A stretch of 64,000 nt of DNA from Thioclava sp. GXIMD2076 (lineage in GTDB: Bacteria > Pseudomonadota > Alphaproteobacteria > Rhodobacterales > Rhodobacteraceae): assembly GCF_037949795.1 (NCBI RefSeq), contig NZ_CP149932.1:2345001-2409000 (forward strand), in the 5' to 3' direction. The notes beneath the pieces are model-generated. The model did no database searches. It was given only the letters and a program-made list of their open reading frames with translations, and was not told where the DNA came from. Position numbers and translations under genes: made by a program. Below, piece after piece: positions 37,132 through 45,526 of the stretch. The stretch's first letter is position 1. Each line of letters begins with the position of its first letter.

Positions 37132-38109
37132 ATGACCATGACCAGCCGCTATACCCTACTGGCCGATATCGGCGGGACCAATACACGGGTCGCTCTGGCA
37201 CAAGGTGCGCAGCTGGTGCCTGCCTCCATCGCGCGTTTCCCCAATAAAGGGCGCGCCACGCTCGAGGAAATCATTCGCGAATACATGGTGGCCGAACGGA
37301 TCAGTGATCTGGTGGGTGTCTGCGTGGCCGTGGCAGGTCCGGTGTCCGTTGACGGGACCCATGCGCGGATGACCAATCTCGACTGGACGATCCGTGCGGA
37401 GGCGCTGGCCGAGGTGACGGGTGCGGCGCATGTATCGCTGCTCAACGATCTGCAGGCACAGGGCCACGCACTCGCCGGGCTCTCGCCGGAAGTGCTGCGC
37501 GAGGTGCAGGCGGGCGAACCCGCGCCTGCCTTGTCGCCCAAGCTGGTGGTCGGTGTCGGGACCGGTTTCAATGCGGCTCCCGTCCATCACGCGCCCGGCG
37601 GGCTGATGGTTGTGCCTGCCTCGGAATGCGGCCATATCACCATGCCCGTCCGCTCCGAGATCCACACCGAGGTCAAGCGCTATTTCGAGCGTAAACACCG
37701 CTTTGCGAGCGTCGAACATGCCTGTGCGGGTCGGGGCCTCGAGCGAATCTATGCGTTCGTGACCGGGCGCGAGGACGCCACCGTAACCGGCGAAGAGATT
37801 CTTTCGCTAATGCACGGTAAAGATGAGGACGCTCTGAAGGCGGCCCAGATCTTCGTAACTCTCCTTGGGGGTGCATTGGGCGATCTGGCCCTAACCCATC
37901 TTCCATTTGGCGGAATTTATTTGATCGGGGGGGCGGCGCGCGCGGTCGAGCCTTGGCTCGAACAGATGAATTTCAGGCAAGCCTTTATGGATAAAGGATC
38001 TTTCTCTGATTACATGACGAAATTCCCGATCCATGTAGTTGAGGATGACTTCGCCGCACTCGCGGGATGCGCGAATTATATCGCCACCCACAAGCTCGGT
38101 CTGTCGTAA
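37132..38109 (+). CDS. glk: Glucokinase
   Basis: 325-residue ROK-distinct (Glk-type) glucokinase making glucose 6-phosphate. The ATP-binding phosphate motif LLADIGGTNTRVALA is at residues 8-22; further motifs are VCVAVAGPVSVDG, TNLDWTI, LLNDLQAQGHAL (catalytic Asp), VVGVGTGFNAAP, SECGHITMPVRSE and IYLIGGAARAVEP. ATG 37132 is chosen because GGAGGAGA lies five to seven bases upstream; a GTG at 37117 overlaps this ribosome site. Downstream of the LacI regulator on the same strand, it would phosphorylate glucose released by the alpha-glucosidase. Confidence 0.94.
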   Translation: MTMTSRYTLLADIGGTNTRVALAQGAQLVPASIARFPNKGRATLEEIIREYMVAERISDLVGVCVAVAGPVSVDGTHARMTNLDWTIRAEALAEVTGAAHVSLLNDLQAQGHALAGLSPEVLREVQAGEPAPALSPKLVVGVGTGFNAAPVHHAPGGLMVVPASECGHITMPVRSEIHTEVKRYFERKHRFASVEHACAGRGLERIYAFVTGREDATVTGEEILSLMHGKDEDALKAAQIFVTLLGGALGDLALTHLPFGGIYLIGGAARAVEPWLEQMNFRQAFMDKGSFSDYMTKFPIHVVEDDFAALAGCANYIATHKLGLS

Positions 38110-38231
38110 ACCTCTCACGGCCCCTGCGCCGTCAAGTCTATGTTAATAGACCTGCGCTAAACCCGTTTCATTACCGAATGAAAGGGGAACTAGGTGCAGT
38201 TTTCTCACTCAGACATCCCTGGGGGCAGCCA

Positions 38232-38507
38232 ATGACGGTTTTGCCTCTGGACCCGAAGCTGGACCTGACCAAGGTCGCGGCTCTTACAGATACCATCCGC
38301 TCCCATAAAGGCAGCGATCTGGTGATTGACGCGACAGAAGTGACCCATCTGGGGGCCCTTGGCCTGCAGGTGCTAGTCTCTGCCGCAAAGAGCTGGCGTG
38401 ACAGCGGTCACTCGCTGACGATTTCGCCCCGCTCCGAAGCCTTCGATGAAGCGCTTGGGCTCTACGGGGTTTCCCTCGACGATTTACAATCCACGGAGGC
38501 CGCATGA
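38232..38507 (+). CDS. STAS-domain protein, first gene of the chemotaxis operon
   Basis: 91-residue protein with a single STAS fold: LDPKLDLTKVAAL, then DLVIDATEVTHLGALGLQVL with the loop THLGALG where anti-anti-sigma proteins have a phosphorylatable serine (here threonine T44 and no serine at the usual place), then SLTISPRSEAFDEALGLYG. It is probably a protein-interaction module of the chemosensory complex, like STAS proteins found next to cheA in other alphaproteobacteria. A GGGGGC lies before the ATG. Its stop overlaps the cheY start as ATGA. Confidence 0.82.
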   Translation: MTVLPLDPKLDLTKVAALTDTIRSHKGSDLVIDATEVTHLGALGLQVLVSAAKSWRDSGHSLTISPRSEAFDEALGLYGVSLDDLQSTEAA

Positions 38508-38869
38508 GCCTGACAGTTCTGGCCGTCGATGACAGCCGCACCATTCGCGACATGCTCAAACTTGCATTGAAAGACGCGGGCATGGAACTCCACGTTGCCG
38601 AAGACGGCGTGCATGGGCTGGAGGTGCTGGAAGGCATCGAACCCGACGCCATCATTTCCGACATCAATATGCCGCGCCTTGACGGTTTCGGCTTCATCGA
38701 GGCCGTTCGCGGTCAGGAAAAGCACCGGGCGACCCCGATCCTTGTCCTGACCACCGAATCCGCCCCCGAGCTGAAAGCACGGGCACGTGCCGCAGGGGCC
38801 AGCGGCTGGATCGTCAAACCGTTTGATCCGCCGAAGCTGGTCAAGGCATTGCAGATGGTTGCTGGCTAA
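38504..38869 (+). CDS. cheY: CheY-type response regulator 1
   Basis: 121-residue single receiver domain. Phosphoacceptor D53 lies in IISDINMPRLDG; acidic pair D9-D10 in AVDDSRTIR; the conserved threonine in LVLTTESAPELK and the lysine in GWIVKPFDPPKL. No output domain, so it signals by binding to FliM or another partner. Translationally coupled to the STAS gene by ATGA and 11 bases before cheA. One of two CheY proteins in this operon. Confidence 0.95.
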   Translation: MSLTVLAVDDSRTIRDMLKLALKDAGMELHVAEDGVHGLEVLEGIEPDAIISDINMPRLDGFGFIEAVRGQEKHRATPILVLTTESAPELKARARAAGASGWIVKPFDPPKLVKALQMVAG

Positions 38870-38880
38870 GGGAGGGATCT

Positions 38881-41067
38881 ATGTCTGATCCGATGGCAGA
38901 AATCAGAGCCAGTTTCTTCGTTGAATGCGAGGAATTGCTCGAAAGTCTTCAGGATGCCCTCATCGAAATGGATGAAGGCGCCTATGATAACGAAACGATC
39001 AACGTCGTTTTCCGGGCGGTGCATTCCATCAAGGGCGGCGCTGGTGCCTTCGGACTGGACGCGCTCGTCGCTTTTGCACACCGTTATGAAACGGTCATGG
39101 ACGAGGTCCGCTCCGGAAAATTGCAGCTGTCTCCGGAGGCAGTGAAACAGTTCTTCCAATGCGCCGATTTCCTATCGGATCATGTTCGTGCAGCCCAGGC
39201 CGGCGACCCTCCTCCCGAGGGTGCAGAGCAGGCGCTGTGCGAGCTGGAAGCCCTAATGGGAATGGCTCCGGGCGGAGCGACAGAAGAGAGTGAAGAAGTG
39301 TCGGCGGACGACTTCCAGCCGATGGGTCTGAGCTTCGATCTGGATCTCGGGACGACCGATGACGTCAGCGAGACCCGCATTGAGATCAAATTCGCGCCCA
39401 AAGCGGAACTTTTTGCGTCAGGCAACGAGCCTTTGCATCTCTTCCGTGCGCTTCATGAACTCTGTCCCGAAATCGAAGTCTCTCTCGATCTGGATGCGGT
39501 TCCTGCCCTCGATGACCTCAGCCCCGAAATTCCCCACCTTTCGTGGCATGCCGTTCTGACTGGCGATGTAAACGAGATGGATGTTCGCGAGATCTTCGAT
39601 TTTGTCGAAGATGTTAGCGAGCTCGAGATCCATCAGGACTCTGATGCCGAAAATAGTTTTCTCCCTTTTGCCAATGACGGTGCGGAGGCATCTTTTGACG
39701 CCGTCATGAACAGTGATTTCATGGATGCCCCGCACCCCATAGCCGCACCGGCGACTCAGGTCGCACAAGCACCGATGCCGAGCGCCGCAGGCGCGGACAT
39801 TCCGGCACCGAAGGAAACCGAGGGAGGTGCGGCCAATACAGGCGGCGCGGCCAAACATGGCAGTGATCCATCGCCGACGGTGCGTGTCGATCTCGATCGT
39901 ATCGACCGGCTGGTGAACCTAGTGGGCGAGCTGGTCATCAACCAGGCCATGCTTGCGCAAAGCGTCGCGGAAGCGGGCCTACCGCCGAACTCGGCAGTCA
40001 TGACAGGTCTTGAAGCATTCATGATGCTGACGCGTGATATCCAGGACTCGGTGATGATGATCCGCGCCCAGCCCGTCAAACCGCTCTTCCAGCGGATGGG
40101 CCGGATCGTGCGCGAATCCTCCGCCGCGATCGGCAAGGATGTGCGTCTGAAAGTCGAAGGTGAAACGACCGAGGTCGACAAGACCGTGATCGAGCGTCTC
40201 GCCGATCCGCTGACGCATATGATCCGGAACTCGGTTGACCATGGCCTGGAGACCCCTGACAAGCGCCGCGCGCTTGGCAAACCGGAAGAAGGTGTTATCA
40301 CACTTTCGGCGCAGCACCGCTCCGGGCGTGTGGTCATCGAGATCGAGGACGACGGTGCAGGCATCAACCGTCCCAAGGTTCTGGCAAAAGCCATCGAGAA
40401 AGGTCTTGTCGCACCCGATGCACAGCTGACCGATGCGGAGATCGATAACCTCCTGTTCCTGCCCGGTTTCTCCACGGCAGATCAGGTCTCCGCTCTGTCG
40501 GGCCGAGGTGTCGGAATGGATGTGGTGCGCAGTTCGATCCAGTCTTTGGGCGGGCGTATCACCATCCAGTCCGAACCTGGCAAAGGTACGATTTTCTCAA
40601 TCTCGCTCCCGCTTACGCTCGCTGTTCTGGACGGAATGGTGGTGACGGTCGCTGGCGAGACGCTCGTTGTTCCGCTGAATGCGATCCTTGAGACGCAGAC
40701 GCTGACCGCCGAGGATCTCCGCAAGCTTGGACCGACAACGAATGTTATCCATGTTCGTGGTGAATTTGTACCCCTCTACGACCTGGGTGCAGAGCTCGGA
40801 TATCGTGGCGCCAAGAGCAACTACGAAGGCTGTATCGTGTTGCTGACAGCCCAAGAAGACGGCCGCCGCAACGCTCTGATCGTCGATCAGATTATGGAGC
40901 AACGTCAGGTAGTGATCAAAGGTCTGCAACAAGCCTATGGCCACATTCCCGGCATTGCCGCCGCAACTATCCTTGGTGACGGTCAGATCGCGCTGATCCT
41001 CGACCCCGCCGACCTTGTCCAAAACGCAACCGGCCACACCCGGTCCGACTTTGCTCTAGCAGGATGA
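38881..41067 (+). CDS. cheA: Chemotaxis histidine kinase CheA
   Basis: 728 residues. P1 Hpt domain with phospho-His H48 in FRAVHSIKGGAGAFG; a P2-like CheY-binding region (about 130-250, with IEIKFAPKAELFASGNEP and VLTGDVNEMDVREIFDFVED); a Gly/Ala-rich linker; P3 dimerisation helices (VDLDRIDRLVNLVGELVINQ, near 335-390); P4 ATPase with N box HMIRNSVDHGLE, G1 EDDGAGI and G2 SGRGVGMDVV; and a P5 CheW-like domain to residue 720. The domain order is that of the standard soluble CheA. Shine-Dalgarno GGGAGG before the ATG. cheW starts within its stop codon region. Confidence 0.97.
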   Translation: MSDPMAEIRASFFVECEELLESLQDALIEMDEGAYDNETINVVFRAVHSIKGGAGAFGLDALVAFAHRYETVMDEVRSGKLQLSPEAVKQFFQCADFLSDHVRAAQAGDPPPEGAEQALCELEALMGMAPGGATEESEEVSADDFQPMGLSFDLDLGTTDDVSETRIEIKFAPKAELFASGNEPLHLFRALHELCPEIEVSLDLDAVPALDDLSPEIPHLSWHAVLTGDVNEMDVREIFDFVEDVSELEIHQDSDAENSFLPFANDGAEASFDAVMNSDFMDAPHPIAAPATQVAQAPMPSAAGADIPAPKETEGGAANTGGAAKHGSDPSPTVRVDLDRIDRLVNLVGELVINQAMLAQSVAEAGLPPNSAVMTGLEAFMMLTRDIQDSVMMIRAQPVKPLFQRMGRIVRESSAAIGKDVRLKVEGETTEVDKTVIERLADPLTHMIRNSVDHGLETPDKRRALGKPEEGVITLSAQHRSGRVVIEIEDDGAGINRPKVLAKAIEKGLVAPDAQLTDAEIDNLLFLPGFSTADQVSALSGRGVGMDVVRSSIQSLGGRITIQSEPGKGTIFSISLPLTLAVLDGMVVTVAGETLVVPLNAILETQTLTAEDLRKLGPTTNVIHVRGEFVPLYDLGAELGYRGAKSNYEGCIVLLTAQEDGRRNALIVDQIMEQRQVVIKGLQQAYGHIPGIAAATILGDGQIALILDPADLVQNATGHTRSDFALAG

Positions 41068-41072
41068 TAAAG

Positions 41073-41540
41073 ATGACTGACGTAGCATCGACCCAAACCT
41101 CGTCCGAAATTGAACTTCTGTCTTTCCGCTTGGCAGACGAAGAATATAGCGTCGACATCATGTCGGTTCGTGAGATCCGTGGCTGGACGCGAGCAACCCC
41201 GCTCCCGCACGCACCACCCCATGTCCGAGGTGTTATCAACTTGCGCGGCACCGTTCTGCCGGTCGTTGATCTCTCCATCCGCCTAGGTATGGACCCGGTC
41301 GAAGGCGACGCTCGTAACGTGATTATCGTTGTACAGTTCGGCAATCAAACAGCAGGACTTCTCGTACATGCTGTGTCGGACATTCTCTCCATTCCGCGCG
41401 AAGAGCTTCAGCCTCCGCCGGATCTCGCTGCGGATCTGTCGCACAGCTTCATCTCTGCTCTAACGATCGTAGAAGGCCGCATGATCCGTGTGCTGGATCT
41501 CGCAACTGTTCTGCCTGAAGACACTGCGGAAGCTGCATGA
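41073..41540 (+). CDS. cheW: Chemotaxis coupling protein CheW
   Basis: 155-residue CheW fold linking CheA to receptors: IELLSFRLADEEYSVDIMSV, REIRGWTRATPLPHAPPHVRG, VINLRGTVLPVVDLSIRLGM. ATG 41073 is preferred because AGGA sits eight bases upstream; ATG 41064 overlaps the cheA stop as ATGA but has no spaced ribosome site. Either way the gene is coupled to cheA. It lies between cheA and cheR and there is no receptor gene nearby, so it probably serves receptors encoded elsewhere. Confidence 0.95.
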   Translation: MTDVASTQTSSEIELLSFRLADEEYSVDIMSVREIRGWTRATPLPHAPPHVRGVINLRGTVLPVVDLSIRLGMDPVEGDARNVIIVVQFGNQTAGLLVHAVSDILSIPREELQPPPDLAADLSHSFISALTIVEGRMIRVLDLATVLPEDTAEAA

Positions 41541-42382
41541 ACGCCCTGACCCCAAATATCTCCCAGATGTCACCAAGTGACCGCGAACTCTCCGAGATTG
41601 CTGCGATCCTTATGACACATGCAGGGATCGTTCTGGCACCGGGCAAGGGATCAATGGTCCAGTCCCGCCTCCAAAAACGGCTTCGTGCTTTGGGGCTGAG
41701 CTCCTATCGCGCCTATATCGATCTGGTAAACAGCGTTGACGGTCTCCCCGAACGGCAGGAAATGATTTCCGCGCTCACAACCAACGTCACCAACTTCTTC
41801 CGGGAGAACCATCACTTCGAGACGCTGCAAAAAGAGGCTCTGCCAAAGCTCATTGCCGCGCGCGGAAAACGGCTGCGGATCTGGTCGGCCGGCTGCTCCA
41901 ACGGGCAAGAAGCCTACTCGATCCTGATGACGGCCGCTGAAACAGTGCGAGAATTCGATCAGTCCGATATCAAGCTTCTGGCGACCGATATTGATCCGGT
42001 CATGATACGTCGCGGCACTCAGGGGGTGTACTCGAGCAGTATCCTTGAAGCCGTACCGGCGCTGCTCCAGAAAAAATACTTCCAAGCGGCCGGGGCAGAT
42101 CAGCAGGTCGTGGATCGCCTACGTAAACGGGCCACATTTCGCGAACTCAATATTCATTCCGATTGGCCCATGAAGGGCCAGTTCGACATCATCTTCTGCC
42201 GGAACATGATGATTTACTTTTCCCCTGAGGCGCAAAACCTCCTGTGGAAGCGCTTTGAGAAAATTCTTGCCCCGGGTGGATGGCTGTTTGTCGGACATTC
42301 GGAGCGGGTTCCGCTCGATACTGGTAGTAAACTCGTGCCGGCCGGAATCACCACTTATCGACTCCCCGCAGAGGGACAATGA
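41537..42382 (+). CDS. cheR: Chemotaxis methyltransferase CheR
   Basis: 281-residue SAM-dependent methyltransferase that adds methyl groups to receptor glutamates. N-terminal helical domain (residues 10-80; ILMTHAGIVLAPGKGSMVQS); SAM-binding motif IWSAGCSNGQEAYSILM near residue 118; LLATDIDPVMIRRG; and FDIIFCRNMMIYFSPEAQ. ATGA overlap with cheW. The partner methylesterase CheB is not in the window, so adaptation would need a cheB elsewhere. Confidence 0.95.
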   Translation: MNALTPNISQMSPSDRELSEIAAILMTHAGIVLAPGKGSMVQSRLQKRLRALGLSSYRAYIDLVNSVDGLPERQEMISALTTNVTNFFRENHHFETLQKEALPKLIAARGKRLRIWSAGCSNGQEAYSILMTAAETVREFDQSDIKLLATDIDPVMIRRGTQGVYSSSILEAVPALLQKKYFQAAGADQQVVDRLRKRATFRELNIHSDWPMKGQFDIIFCRNMMIYFSPEAQNLLWKRFEKILAPGGWLFVGHSERVPLDTGSKLVPAGITTYRLPAEGQ

Positions 42383-42394
42383 AGGAGGCCACAA

Positions 42395-42781
42395 ATGGCA
42401 TTGCGAGACCAACTTAAAGTTTTGGTGGTCGATGACATGTCCACGAGCCGCGGCCTGATTTTGCAGGCGCTGGACGCGATGGGTATTCGCCAAGTCGGAT
42501 ATGCTGTCGACGGTCAAGGCGCGATGGGTATTCTGGAAAAGACGCCGGTTCACCTGGTCATCTCCGACTATAACATGCCTGGCATGGATGGGCTGCAGCT
42601 GCTCCATGCGATGCGCAAGAACCCGAAGACGCAACGTAGCGGTTTCATCCTGATCACCGGCCGGGCCGATAAGGAAATCATCGAGAACGGCAAAAAGCTG
42701 GGAATGAACAACTTCATCAAAAAGCCGTTCCAACCGCAGGACCTTCGTAACTGCATCGAGGCGGTCGTGGGGCGCCTATGA
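42395..42781 (+). CDS. cheY: CheY-type response regulator 2
   Basis: 128-residue receiver domain with phosphoacceptor D58 in LVISDYNMPGMDG, acidic residues D13-D14 in LVVDDMSTSRG, the Thr of LITGRADK and Lys of NFIKKPFQPQ. The motif MSTSRGLILQALDAMG is like that of the E. coli-type CheY that binds FliM. GGAGG precedes the start. Its stop overlaps the start of the next gene as ATGA, so the two products are made together. Confidence 0.95.
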   Translation: MALRDQLKVLVVDDMSTSRGLILQALDAMGIRQVGYAVDGQGAMGILEKTPVHLVISDYNMPGMDGLQLLHAMRKNPKTQRSGFILITGRADKEIIENGKKLGMNNFIKKPFQPQDLRNCIEAVVGRL

Positions 42782-43170
42782 TTGTAAGCACCGCACAGGA
42801 AACAATCCCGCCAAAGCATCAAGACCTGCCTCTTGATGCGCTGGCCGCCCGCGTGGGGGACGAGCTCGAGACACTGGCTCGCCTCTCCGCCGACGTCCAG
42901 AAAGCGATTTCAGCCTGCGAATTCGCGGAACATACGCAGGCCGAAGCGATCCGTGGTATGCAGGGTATCGACCGGATCACTCAGTCCCTAGAGGATCTAG
43001 GCCGCCTCATGGCTGCGGTTTCGGGAGAGATGCCCCAAGGTGTGAAACTGCATGCCGTTCCGATCCTCTCGCGCCTTCGCCTGCATGAACTCATCACGAA
43101 TTTGAACCCTGCGGAAGAGCGGATAGTGCTGAGCCATGATGAAGCGGATGGGGAGATTGAATGGTTCTAA
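42778..43170 (+). CDS. Unknown chemotaxis-operon protein, candidate CheZ-like phosphatase
   Basis: 130 residues, predicted almost fully helical from residue 16 to 82, then a loop and one more helix (LSRLRLHELITNLNPAEE) and an acidic tail ending DGEIEWF. Within the long second helix, M61-Q-G-I-D65-R-I-T-Q69 has the D-x-x-x-Q pattern and surrounding IxxMQxID spacing seen in the CheZ active site (E. coli CheZ has QDFQDLTGQ), where Asp and Gln act on CheY-P. The acidic tail with a terminal Phe recalls the CheZ C-terminus that docks CheY. It is coupled by ATGA to cheY 2. It is much shorter than E. coli CheZ (about 214 residues) and has no other recognised domain. The function is my inference. Confidence 0.72.
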   Translation: MIVSTAQETIPPKHQDLPLDALAARVGDELETLARLSADVQKAISACEFAEHTQAEAIRGMQGIDRITQSLEDLGRLMAAVSGEMPQGVKLHAVPILSRLRLHELITNLNPAEERIVLSHDEADGEIEWF

Positions 43171-43198: not shown

Positions 43199-45526
43199 TC
43201 ATCTGGTTTTGTTGAGTGCCTGCGCGAGCGCGGAGCCCAATGCACTATTGGTACCGGACACGGCAGAAGCCCCGGTTCCGCTTTTTTTATGCTGCAATGA
43301 TTTCGACTGACCTTTTGATGCAGGACCTCGGCTCGGCTCGGGCCGCTCGGTCTTTCCATCTCGACGCATCGAGAGCCCGATGCGCTTGCGCGGCACATCA
43401 ACTTCCGTCACCACGACTTTGACCACATCACCCGCTTTGACGACCTCATGCGGGTCCTTGACAAAACGGTCCGCCAATTGGCTCACATGGACAAGCCCAT
43501 CCTGATGGACGCCGATATCGACAAAGGCCCCGAAAGCCGCGACATTGGTTATGGTTCCCTCAAGACGCATACCGGGACGAAGATCGGATATCTCTTCCAC
43601 CCCTTCGGTAAAGCTTGCAGTTTTGAAATCAGGGCGCGGATCTCGTCCAGGCTTCTGAAGCTCTGCCAGAATATCACGAATGGTCGGGAGACCGAATCCG
43701 TCGCGCAGAAAATCCTCCGCCCGTAAATTCTGCAATGCTGTATCATTCCCCATCACCGACCGCAGATCGCGCCCACAGGATTTCACGATATCCCGAGCGA
43801 TTTCATAGGCCTCCGGGTGGACCGCTGATGCGTCGAGGGGCTCCTTCCCGTCACGGATACGCAGGAATCCAGCGGCTTGCTCGAAGGCGCGCGGACCCAG
43901 ACGGCTGACCTTTAAGAGCTCCTTGCGGGTCGCAAACGCCCCGTTCGCCTCACGATGGGCCACGATCGCTTCTGCGAGGGCCGGACCGAGGCCCGAAACA
44001 TGGGACAGTAGCGCCGAAGAGGCTGTGTTGAGATCGACCCCCACCGCATTTACCGCATCCTCGACCACACCCTCGAGGGATCGGCCCAGCTTGTGCTGAT
44101 CGACATCATGCTGATACTGCCCGACGCCGATGCTTTTCGGCTCGATCTTTACCAGTTCCGCCAAGGGGTCCTGCAGACGGCGCGCAATCGACACGGCCCC
44201 GCGCAGGCTGACATCCAGATCGGGAAATTCGCGGGCGGCGAGTTCTGACGCGGAATAGACCGAGGCTCCCGCCTCGGAAACGATCACCTTGGTCGGAATG
44301 GCAACGCCCTTGGGCAGCCGTTTGAGCACATCCACGACGAGGCGTTCGGTCTCTCGGGACGCGGTGCCATTGCCGATAGCGATCAATTCGATCCGGTGTT
44401 TCGCAATCAACGCAAGTAGCGCCGCCTCCGATCCGCGCAGATCGTTCTTGGGCTGGAACGGGTAGATTGTGGTCGTTTCCAAAACCTTCCCAGTCGCGTC
44501 GATGGCCGCCACTTTCACACCCGTTCGGATCCCCGGATCGAGACCGAGCGTCGCCCGCGCACCAGCCGGAGCTGCCAGAAGCAGATCCTTCAGATTGCGG
44601 GCAAAGACCGCAATCGCCTCCTCCTGCGCGCGCGCGCGTAGATCACCGAGCAGATCGAGCATCATAGACAGCGACAGTTTCACCCGCCATGCCCATGCCG
44701 CGGCCTGCCCCAGCCAAAGGGCACCCGCACCCTGCCCGCGCAACCCCAGCGACGCGGCCACGATCTCGGCCGGCCGTCCCGCCATCTCTTCGGCGGGGGC
44801 GATATCGAGCGTGATGATCCCTTCATTCGAGGCGCGCAACAATGCCAGCGCCCGATGGGAGGGCGCACTCTGCCACTTTTCGCTATGATCGAAATAATCC
44901 GAGAATTTGGCACCTTTTTCGGCCTGCCCATCGATCAACTTTCCACGCAGGATCGCATTCTGCTGCATCCATTCGCGCAACCGGCCCAGCAAAGCCGCAT
45001 CCTCGGTGAGGCGCTCGCCCAGGATATCACGCGCGCCGGTCAGCGCATCTTTCTCGGTCGGCACGGCTTCCGAAAGATAGGTGGAGGCCAGCCCTTCAGG
45101 ATCTGCCCCGTGATCGGCCAGAATCGCTTCGAGGAGCGGTTCCAGCCCGTTCTCGCGCGCGGTCATCGCTTTGGTGCGCCGCTTTTTCTTGTAGGGGAGA
45201 TAGAGATCTTCCAGCTCGGCCTTTGTGCCTGCCTTGGTAATCTGCGCCGCAAGGGCGTCAGTCAGCTTGCCCTGCTCCTCGATGGATTTGACAATCGCGC
45301 TGCGCCGCGCTTCCAACTCGCGCAGATAGACCAACCGGTCCGAAAGCAGACGCAACTGGCTGTCGTCCAGCCCCCCCGTCGCCTCCTTGCGGTAACGCGC
45401 GACGAAAGGAACCGTCGCCCCTTCATCCAGAAGTTTTACCGCCGCAACCACCTGATCGGTGCGGGCGGAGATATCTGTGGCAATCTGACGGGATATGCGG
45501 AGATCGGGGTCCAAGGCTTCCTCCAT
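43199..45526 (-). CDS. tex: RNA-binding transcriptional accessory protein Tex
   Basis: 775-residue Tex protein. N-terminal HTH-like region with VPFVARYRKEATGGLDDSQLR, the conserved EDLYLPYKKKRRTKA, a YqgF-like domain (TLGLDPGIRTGVKVAAID), helix-hairpin-helix motifs (LLSHVSGLGPALAEAIVAHR), and a C-terminal S1 domain (GMRLEGTITNVAAFGAFVDIG, DGLVHVSQLADRFV). It binds nucleic acid and affects transcription or RNA turnover; homologue of eukaryotic Spt6. The tail after the S1 domain is Lys/Ser rich. Convergent with the chemotaxis operon. Confidence 0.96.
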   Translation of the reverse strand: MEEALDPDLRISRQIATDISARTDQVVAAVKLLDEGATVPFVARYRKEATGGLDDSQLRLLSDRLVYLRELEARRSAIVKSIEEQGKLTDALAAQITKAGTKAELEDLYLPYKKKRRTKAMTARENGLEPLLEAILADHGADPEGLASTYLSEAVPTEKDALTGARDILGERLTEDAALLGRLREWMQQNAILRGKLIDGQAEKGAKFSDYFDHSEKWQSAPSHRALALLRASNEGIITLDIAPAEEMAGRPAEIVAASLGLRGQGAGALWLGQAAAWAWRVKLSLSMMLDLLGDLRARAQEEAIAVFARNLKDLLLAAPAGARATLGLDPGIRTGVKVAAIDATGKVLETTTIYPFQPKNDLRGSEAALLALIAKHRIELIAIGNGTASRETERLVVDVLKRLPKGVAIPTKVIVSEAGASVYSASELAAREFPDLDVSLRGAVSIARRLQDPLAELVKIEPKSIGVGQYQHDVDQHKLGRSLEGVVEDAVNAVGVDLNTASSALLSHVSGLGPALAEAIVAHREANGAFATRKELLKVSRLGPRAFEQAAGFLRIRDGKEPLDASAVHPEAYEIARDIVKSCGRDLRSVMGNDTALQNLRAEDFLRDGFGLPTIRDILAELQKPGRDPRPDFKTASFTEGVEEISDLRPGMRLEGTITNVAAFGAFVDIGVHQDGLVHVSQLADRFVKDPHEVVKAGDVVKVVVTEVDVPRKRIGLSMRRDGKTERPEPSRGPASKGQSKSLQHKKSGTGASAVSGTNSALGSALAQALNKTR

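Follow-up and report, generated by a model that had tools for sequence, protein, structure and literature searches.

A probable diverged CheT and candidate CheY-P phosphatase at the end of a chemotaxis operon in Thioclava sp. GXIMD2076

How chemotactic signals are rapidly ended in swimming Rhodobacteraceae is not settled by CheZ, since a search of 120 genera of the family (one genome each) did not find this phosphatase in any of them, and a small open reading frame (ORF) at the end of a che operon of Thioclava sp. GXIMD2076 raises the question of whether another protein takes over this function. The window, i.e. the whole stretch of 64,000 nucleotides that was analysed, carries on its forward strand the gene order cheS-cheY1-cheA-cheW-cheR-cheY2-cheT-like. 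It starts with the gene of a cheS-like STAS protein (38067..38507; STAS_2), the true start of which probably lies inside the ORF, followed by cheY1 (38504..38869), cheA (38881..41067; Hpt, dimerisation, ATPase and CheW domains), cheW (41064..41540; Pfam CheW), cheR (41537..42382; Pfam CheR) and cheY2 (42395..42781; best PDB sequence match 1p6q). The last gene, which is the subject of this work (42778..43170), encodes a protein of 130 amino acids and is coupled to cheY2, exactly as read in the original prediction, by an ATG overlapping the cheY2 stop codon as ATGA (42778-42781). One frame of the reverse complement of 42778-43170 contains stops, and a convergent ORF on the opposite strand (43199-45526) ends 28 bases behind the gene. 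In the same genome, cheB and cheD are located outside the window, where they adjoin an MCP gene ending DDWEDF (L194:4744-9507), and no match to CheZ (profile search), CheX or CheC was obtained.

The encoded protein had been proposed to be a divergent CheZ-like phosphatase lacking any recognised domain. The latter holds for Pfam, where no domain reaches significance (best E 0.08, below cut-off), but not for NCBIfam, whose CheT model NF047973 yields a weak match (E 9.1e-4, 19.3 bits vs. a curated cut-off of 200). The Pfam listing of the window protein up to E 10 comprises three families, none of them CheZ (PF04344), and comparison of three CheT-type profiles with an alphaproteobacterial CheZ profile by hhalign resulted in values of 0.3-1.0%. 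The CheZ profile was built from 11 CheZ-like ORFs of other alphaproteobacteria, which a scan of 26 class loci had recognised by their motif. A PDB profile search returned 12 rows up to E 10, led by keratin at 2.6e-4, a match that was judged compositional. Similarity to the CheZ sequence QDFQDLTGQ, which had been pointed out previously, extends to a DxxxQ located in a helix, but not to the residues in front of it: in CheZ, an AXXFQ motif directly precedes DXXXQ (excerpts of PMC7750401), and alphaproteobacterial CheZ carries a Q immediately before the D (e.g. ...FQDITGQ), while the window protein reads I-R-G-M-Q-G-I-D-R-I-T-Q without AXXFQ and its family conserves a Q at -3 instead of -1. On the basis of Pfam, PDB sequence search and profile comparison, membership in CheZ was rejected, while a DxxxQ-type mechanism acting on CheY-P is retained from that proposal as the best-supported reading. 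One could still imagine a genuine CheZ of reduced length, with CheY2-P (the motor regulator whose gene lies next to it) as its substrate, as the DxxxQ sits in helix 2 of a hairpin, the gene adjoins cheY2 and other alphaproteobacterial families do have a real CheZ beside a cheY (the 11 ORFs from 26 loci); considering the absent Pfam match, the hhalign values, the missing AXXFQ and, instead, a nearly full-length match to CheT, this is regarded as improbable.

This match to CheT was obtained by hhalign between the window family and a profile of 32 rhizobial CheT sequences (alignment A3, representing 32 of 80 rhizobial loci), which gave 96.7% over 117 columns, i.e. nearly the whole protein, at approximately 21% identity and with the LQGID...Q motifs as well as the tails aligned. 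Using separately built profiles, the window family reached 93.2% with CheT and 99.1% with a set of proteins picked by gene position (see below), and 31 of these positional proteins that lack a BLASTP match to the window protein reached 97.8% with CheT. Reversed-profile controls with CheT, the window family and the positional set remained at 0.5-17.9%. One reversed control, rhizobial CheT against reversed CheZ, was high at 44.6%, and middling hhalign values were therefore not used. The NCBIfam model points in the same direction, as NF047973 matches 58 of 73 members of alignment A2 at E <= 0.01 (best 4.6e-9), with the next models matching three and one of them and 15 members remaining without an NF047973 match at this threshold. 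At E <= 0.001, it recovers 2 of 61 relatives and 1 of 289 class genomes; in the corresponding profile search no searched genome exceeded the 200-bit cut-off and no match was reported in the genome of Thioclava sp. GXIMD2076 itself. At this stricter threshold, NF047973 is too narrow for the branch considered here. With regard to homology alone, the CheT-like protein is almost certainly a strongly diverged CheT.

Comparison of gene neighbourhoods adds to this picture. Using CheY2 of Sinorhizobium meliloti (PDB 1p6q) as query for rhizobial che loci, CheT was found in all 80 loci considered (best 80 of 387). QG[IVL]D...Q is present in 79 of 79 distinct rhizobial CheT sequences and takes the form LQGIDLAVQ in 49 of them, compared with MQGIDRITQ (residues 61-69, including D65 and Q69) in the window protein. 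The upstream genes of the window operon match their counterparts of S. meliloti 4H41 in order, with identities of 37% (86 residues aligned, with the gene that occupies the cheS position), 63% (cheY1), 49% (cheA), 54% (cheW), 47% (cheR) and 46% (cheY2, over 128 residues). With the window protein as tblastn query, the che region of S. meliloti gave nothing at cheT on its strand (best E 8, opposite strand). One Rhodobacteraceae locus, L052, keeps the rhizobial order cheY2-cheD-cheT-like, with the motif present in the CheT-like protein. According to excerpts of a 2025 review (PMC12654446), CheT homologues have been named in S. medicae, R. leguminosarum, C. crescentus and Hoeflea, and Rhodobacter sphaeroides is listed among the bacteria possessing CheD, CheS and CheT, an assertion behind which neither a sequence nor a test appears in these excerpts. 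CheT has, hence, been asserted in Rhodobacteraceae at least once already, and the window protein is a diverged new CheT and not a new kind of phosphatase. Homologues for which the first protein search gave a source name are annotated as hypothetical or uncharacterised protein, and in the literature searched no phosphatase assay of a CheT-like member from Rhodobacteraceae was found.

The candidate phosphatase site, Q62-x-x-D65-x-x-x-Q69 (42961..42984, forward strand), is preserved throughout the family. Q..D...Q occurs in 120 of 120 homologues listed from two protein searches, the second of which scored 7997 candidates and contributed a list of 120 out of 125 matches. Alignment A2, composed of 71 of these 120 proteins plus the proteins of two divergent loci (n=73), contains Q62, D65 and Q69 as its sole invariant positions. 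A further alignment, A1, was made from 59 of 96 matches. It includes, as does the count of 120, one chimeric metagenome protein (P0096) that was left out of A2; here, a cytochrome-type N-terminus (PF03264) is joined to a CheT-like C-terminal part, and this fusion is most likely an assembly artefact.

Besides searching by similarity, counterparts were picked by position only. Orthologues of cheY2 (cut at E <= 5.3e-27) are present in 53 of the 120 Rhodobacteraceae genomes, every genome representing another genus, and two more from a class-wide search bring the number of loci to 55. At 54 of them, an ORF of 85-170 amino acids starting near the cheY2 stop was picked with the motif ignored in the choice. 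[QN]..D...Q was present in 51 of these 54 ORFs, whereas 200 rounds of residue shuffling yielded it in 1.66 ORFs on average and in 7 at most; the plain D...Q is less striking (again 51 of 54, vs. a shuffled mean of 19.2 and a maximum of 28). One of the 51 motif-bearing ORFs (L055) was discounted as spurious. Exact Q..D...Q is found in 50 of 50 accepted positional counterparts, a count that leaves out four of the 54 ORFs and, by locus, L055 in spite of its Q..D...Q, L056, L024, L038 (no ORF by the rule, with cheB next) and L052, where the picked ORF lies out of frame within cheD and the CheT-like gene comes after cheD. At E <= 1e-3, a BLASTP search with the window protein as query recovers no more than 19 of these 50, including the query itself and with E-values referring to a set of 50; hence, the motif outlasts the drift of the remaining sequence. 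Its conservation is beyond chance, and the absence of D65 and Q69 from orthologues, which had been named as an outcome that would speak against the original prediction, is not what the alignments display.

In the AlphaFold model of the window protein (pLDDT 82.9, pTM 0.72), residues 19-45 form a first predicted helix (42832..42912) and residues 55-84 a second one (42940..43029), both encoded on the forward strand, and the motif is located in the latter, in agreement with the long helix anticipated around D65-x-x-x-Q69. The corresponding model of S. meliloti CheT is moderately confident (pLDDT 73.2, pTM 0.58; last 22 residues under 50) and places these helices at residues 14-40 and 47-75. Both models share a first helix of 27 residues, a second helix with D at +10 and Q at +14, and the succession of a short strand, two helices, another short strand and a third helix, which is split in two in the window protein. 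The CheT-like protein is predicted to form a helical hairpin. Fold searches with the window model gave no match at E <= 0.001, with generic hairpins and no CheZ among the matches listed; the same search with the S. meliloti CheT model likewise gave no match at E <= 0.001, and the matches listed there, too, are generic hairpins with CheZ absent among them. As these searches are uninformative for the window model and for a known CheT alike, they were counted neither way. Commonness of helical hairpins, together with the unspecific PDB and fold matches, might suggest an unrelated small helical protein in which the motif is coincidental. Such a coincidence is very unlikely, however, given the profile match to CheT and a motif that recurs in every listed homologue and every accepted positional counterpart, far above the shuffles.

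Excerpts of the review mentioned above (PMC12654446) describe S. meliloti CheT as a protein with a DXXXQ motif and a predicted structure like that of CheZ, which speeds up the dephosphorylation of only one of two CheY-P and forms complexes with CheR. The latter property could also indicate that the CheT-like protein is mainly an adaptor linking CheR, and perhaps CheD, to the array, in which case DxxxQ would be used for CheY binding more than for catalysis; two tail residues among those conserved to at least 90% and a similar tail on CheD fit this idea as well. Q62, D65 and Q69 being the only invariant residues in A2, however, fits catalysis better than binding alone, and the adaptor function as main role is considered unlikely, albeit less so than a shortened CheZ. 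For the preferred reading as a whole, i.e. homology to CheT together with phosphatase action on a CheY-P, we estimate a probability of roughly two in three.

For catalysis, substrate and partner of the CheT-like protein, we infer the following scheme. The protein may dimerise into a bundle, in which helix 2 would insert D65 and Q69 into a CheY-P active site, and the Q would orient the attacking water as in CheZ. As the characterised CheT discriminates between two CheYs, coupling to cheY2 through ATGA does not name the target. In the S. meliloti study by Agbekudzi from 2024, CheT is said to act on CheY1-P and not on CheY2-P. CheY1 and CheY2 of the window are each closer to their S. meliloti namesake (63 vs. 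34% and 46 vs. 29% identity, respectively), which makes the S. meliloti division of labour the natural prediction. By analogy, the CheT-like protein probably speeds up the loss of phosphate from CheY1-P, a presumed phosphate sink and its likely preferred substrate, rather than from CheY2-P. By emptying the CheY1 sink, it could allow CheY2-P to be drained through CheA and CheS. Excerpts of an older review describe S. meliloti and related rhizobia as lacking CheZ and CheY1 as a phosphate sink working with CheS. Finally, the C-terminal tail, G-[DE]-hydrophobic-x-[LW]-F, may serve to dock the protein onto another component of the array. CheR is the most promising such partner, given the binding of CheT to CheR in S. 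meliloti.

This tail constitutes the second conserved element. The window protein ends in DEADGEIEWF, of which GEIEWF (43150..43167, forward strand) represents a candidate docking peptide with G125 and W129 conserved to at least 90% in A2. All 120 listed homologues end in WF or WL, and in the positional set 46 of 50 proteins end in F, L, W or Y, with F as last residue in 37 of them although F makes up 2.2% of residues. By commonest residue, the tail of the 51 motif-bearing positional ORFs reads G-[ED]-[VI]-[ED]-[LW]-F, and S is frequent at the second position as well. Rhizobial CheT ends in GDFEAF (36 of 79), GDFDFF (32 of 79) or a variant thereof, F being last in 79 of 79. Similar ends are found on CheD, which terminates in [IV]EFF in all 80 rhizobial loci (best 80 of 387) and in LF in 10 of the 12 further CheD that a scan of 39 loci brought up. 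Among the latter is CheD of Thioclava sp. GXIMD2076 itself (L194:4744-5421), whose NDVELF end (DVELF) is much like the CheT tails. In consequence, the Trp-Phe tail, which had been taken as a CheZ-like docking signature, cannot be upheld as such, for similar tails are present on CheT as well as CheD and, hence, it lacks specificity for CheZ. Judged from these sequences, the likeness suggests a common docking partner of CheD and CheT. In the literature searched, which did not extend to the CheT paper itself, no mention of a tail common to both proteins was found. Three of 17 receptor loci in the same genome end in DDWEDF, DDWEDF and DGWDEF, and ends of this type are known as the CheR/CheB-binding receptor pentapeptide, the consensus of which has W or another aromatic residue in second and F in fifth place (excerpts of PMC7390727). 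CheT and CheD tails resemble this pentapeptide in their acidic residues and the final F, but EIEWF of the window protein has I at position 2, and an aromatic residue occurs there in 1 of 50 positional counterparts vs. 76 of 79 rhizobial CheT. Mimicry of the receptor pentapeptide, which is attractive for rhizobial CheT (DFEAF), was consequently retained as no more than an idea.

A CheT-like gene is present at 51 of the 55 cheY2 loci, 50 times directly behind cheY2 and once behind cheD (L052). At L024 and L038, the cheY2 orthologue is followed by cheB-cheD with no CheT-like gene alongside, from which it follows that the gene is dispensable or movable, and no CheT-like gene was seen at the cheY2 loci L055 and L056. 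CheD of L038 also lacks the usual tail; together with the absence of CheT this possibly reflects a loss or an assembly fault. Where cheY2 orthologues were seen, i.e. in about half of the sampled genera (53 of 120), the CheT-like gene offers a testable answer to the question of signal ending, and the drift around a kept motif resembles a mutational scan performed by nature, from which the requirements of such a phosphatase might be read. Remaining interest lies in its reach across a family in which no CheZ was found and in the tail shared with CheD. Tentatively, and with odds we would put somewhat below even, CheT may be the common signal-termination protein of operon-bearing Rhodobacteraceae, hidden by drift outside Q-x-x-D-x-x-x-Q and a short tail, with the CheD-shared tail acting as a common dock, through which the removal of phosphate and the adaptation of receptors would be tied together at one partner, either CheR or the array.

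Among known systems, alternative CheY-P phosphatases in bacteria without CheZ comprise CheX, CheC and the phosphatase domain of CheA3 from Rhodobacter sphaeroides (excerpts of PMC2829493). With CheZ (PF04344), the CheT-like protein has in common a hairpin of helices, the second of which bears DxxxQ, as well as the proposed chemistry, but it differs in length (about 214 amino acids in E. coli vs. 130 here) and has no detectable sequence or profile relation to it. S. meliloti CheT, in contrast, is likewise encoded by the last gene of a collinear che operon and is of similar size (124 vs. 130 amino acids), the S. meliloti operon differing from that of the window in that cheB and cheD have been added.
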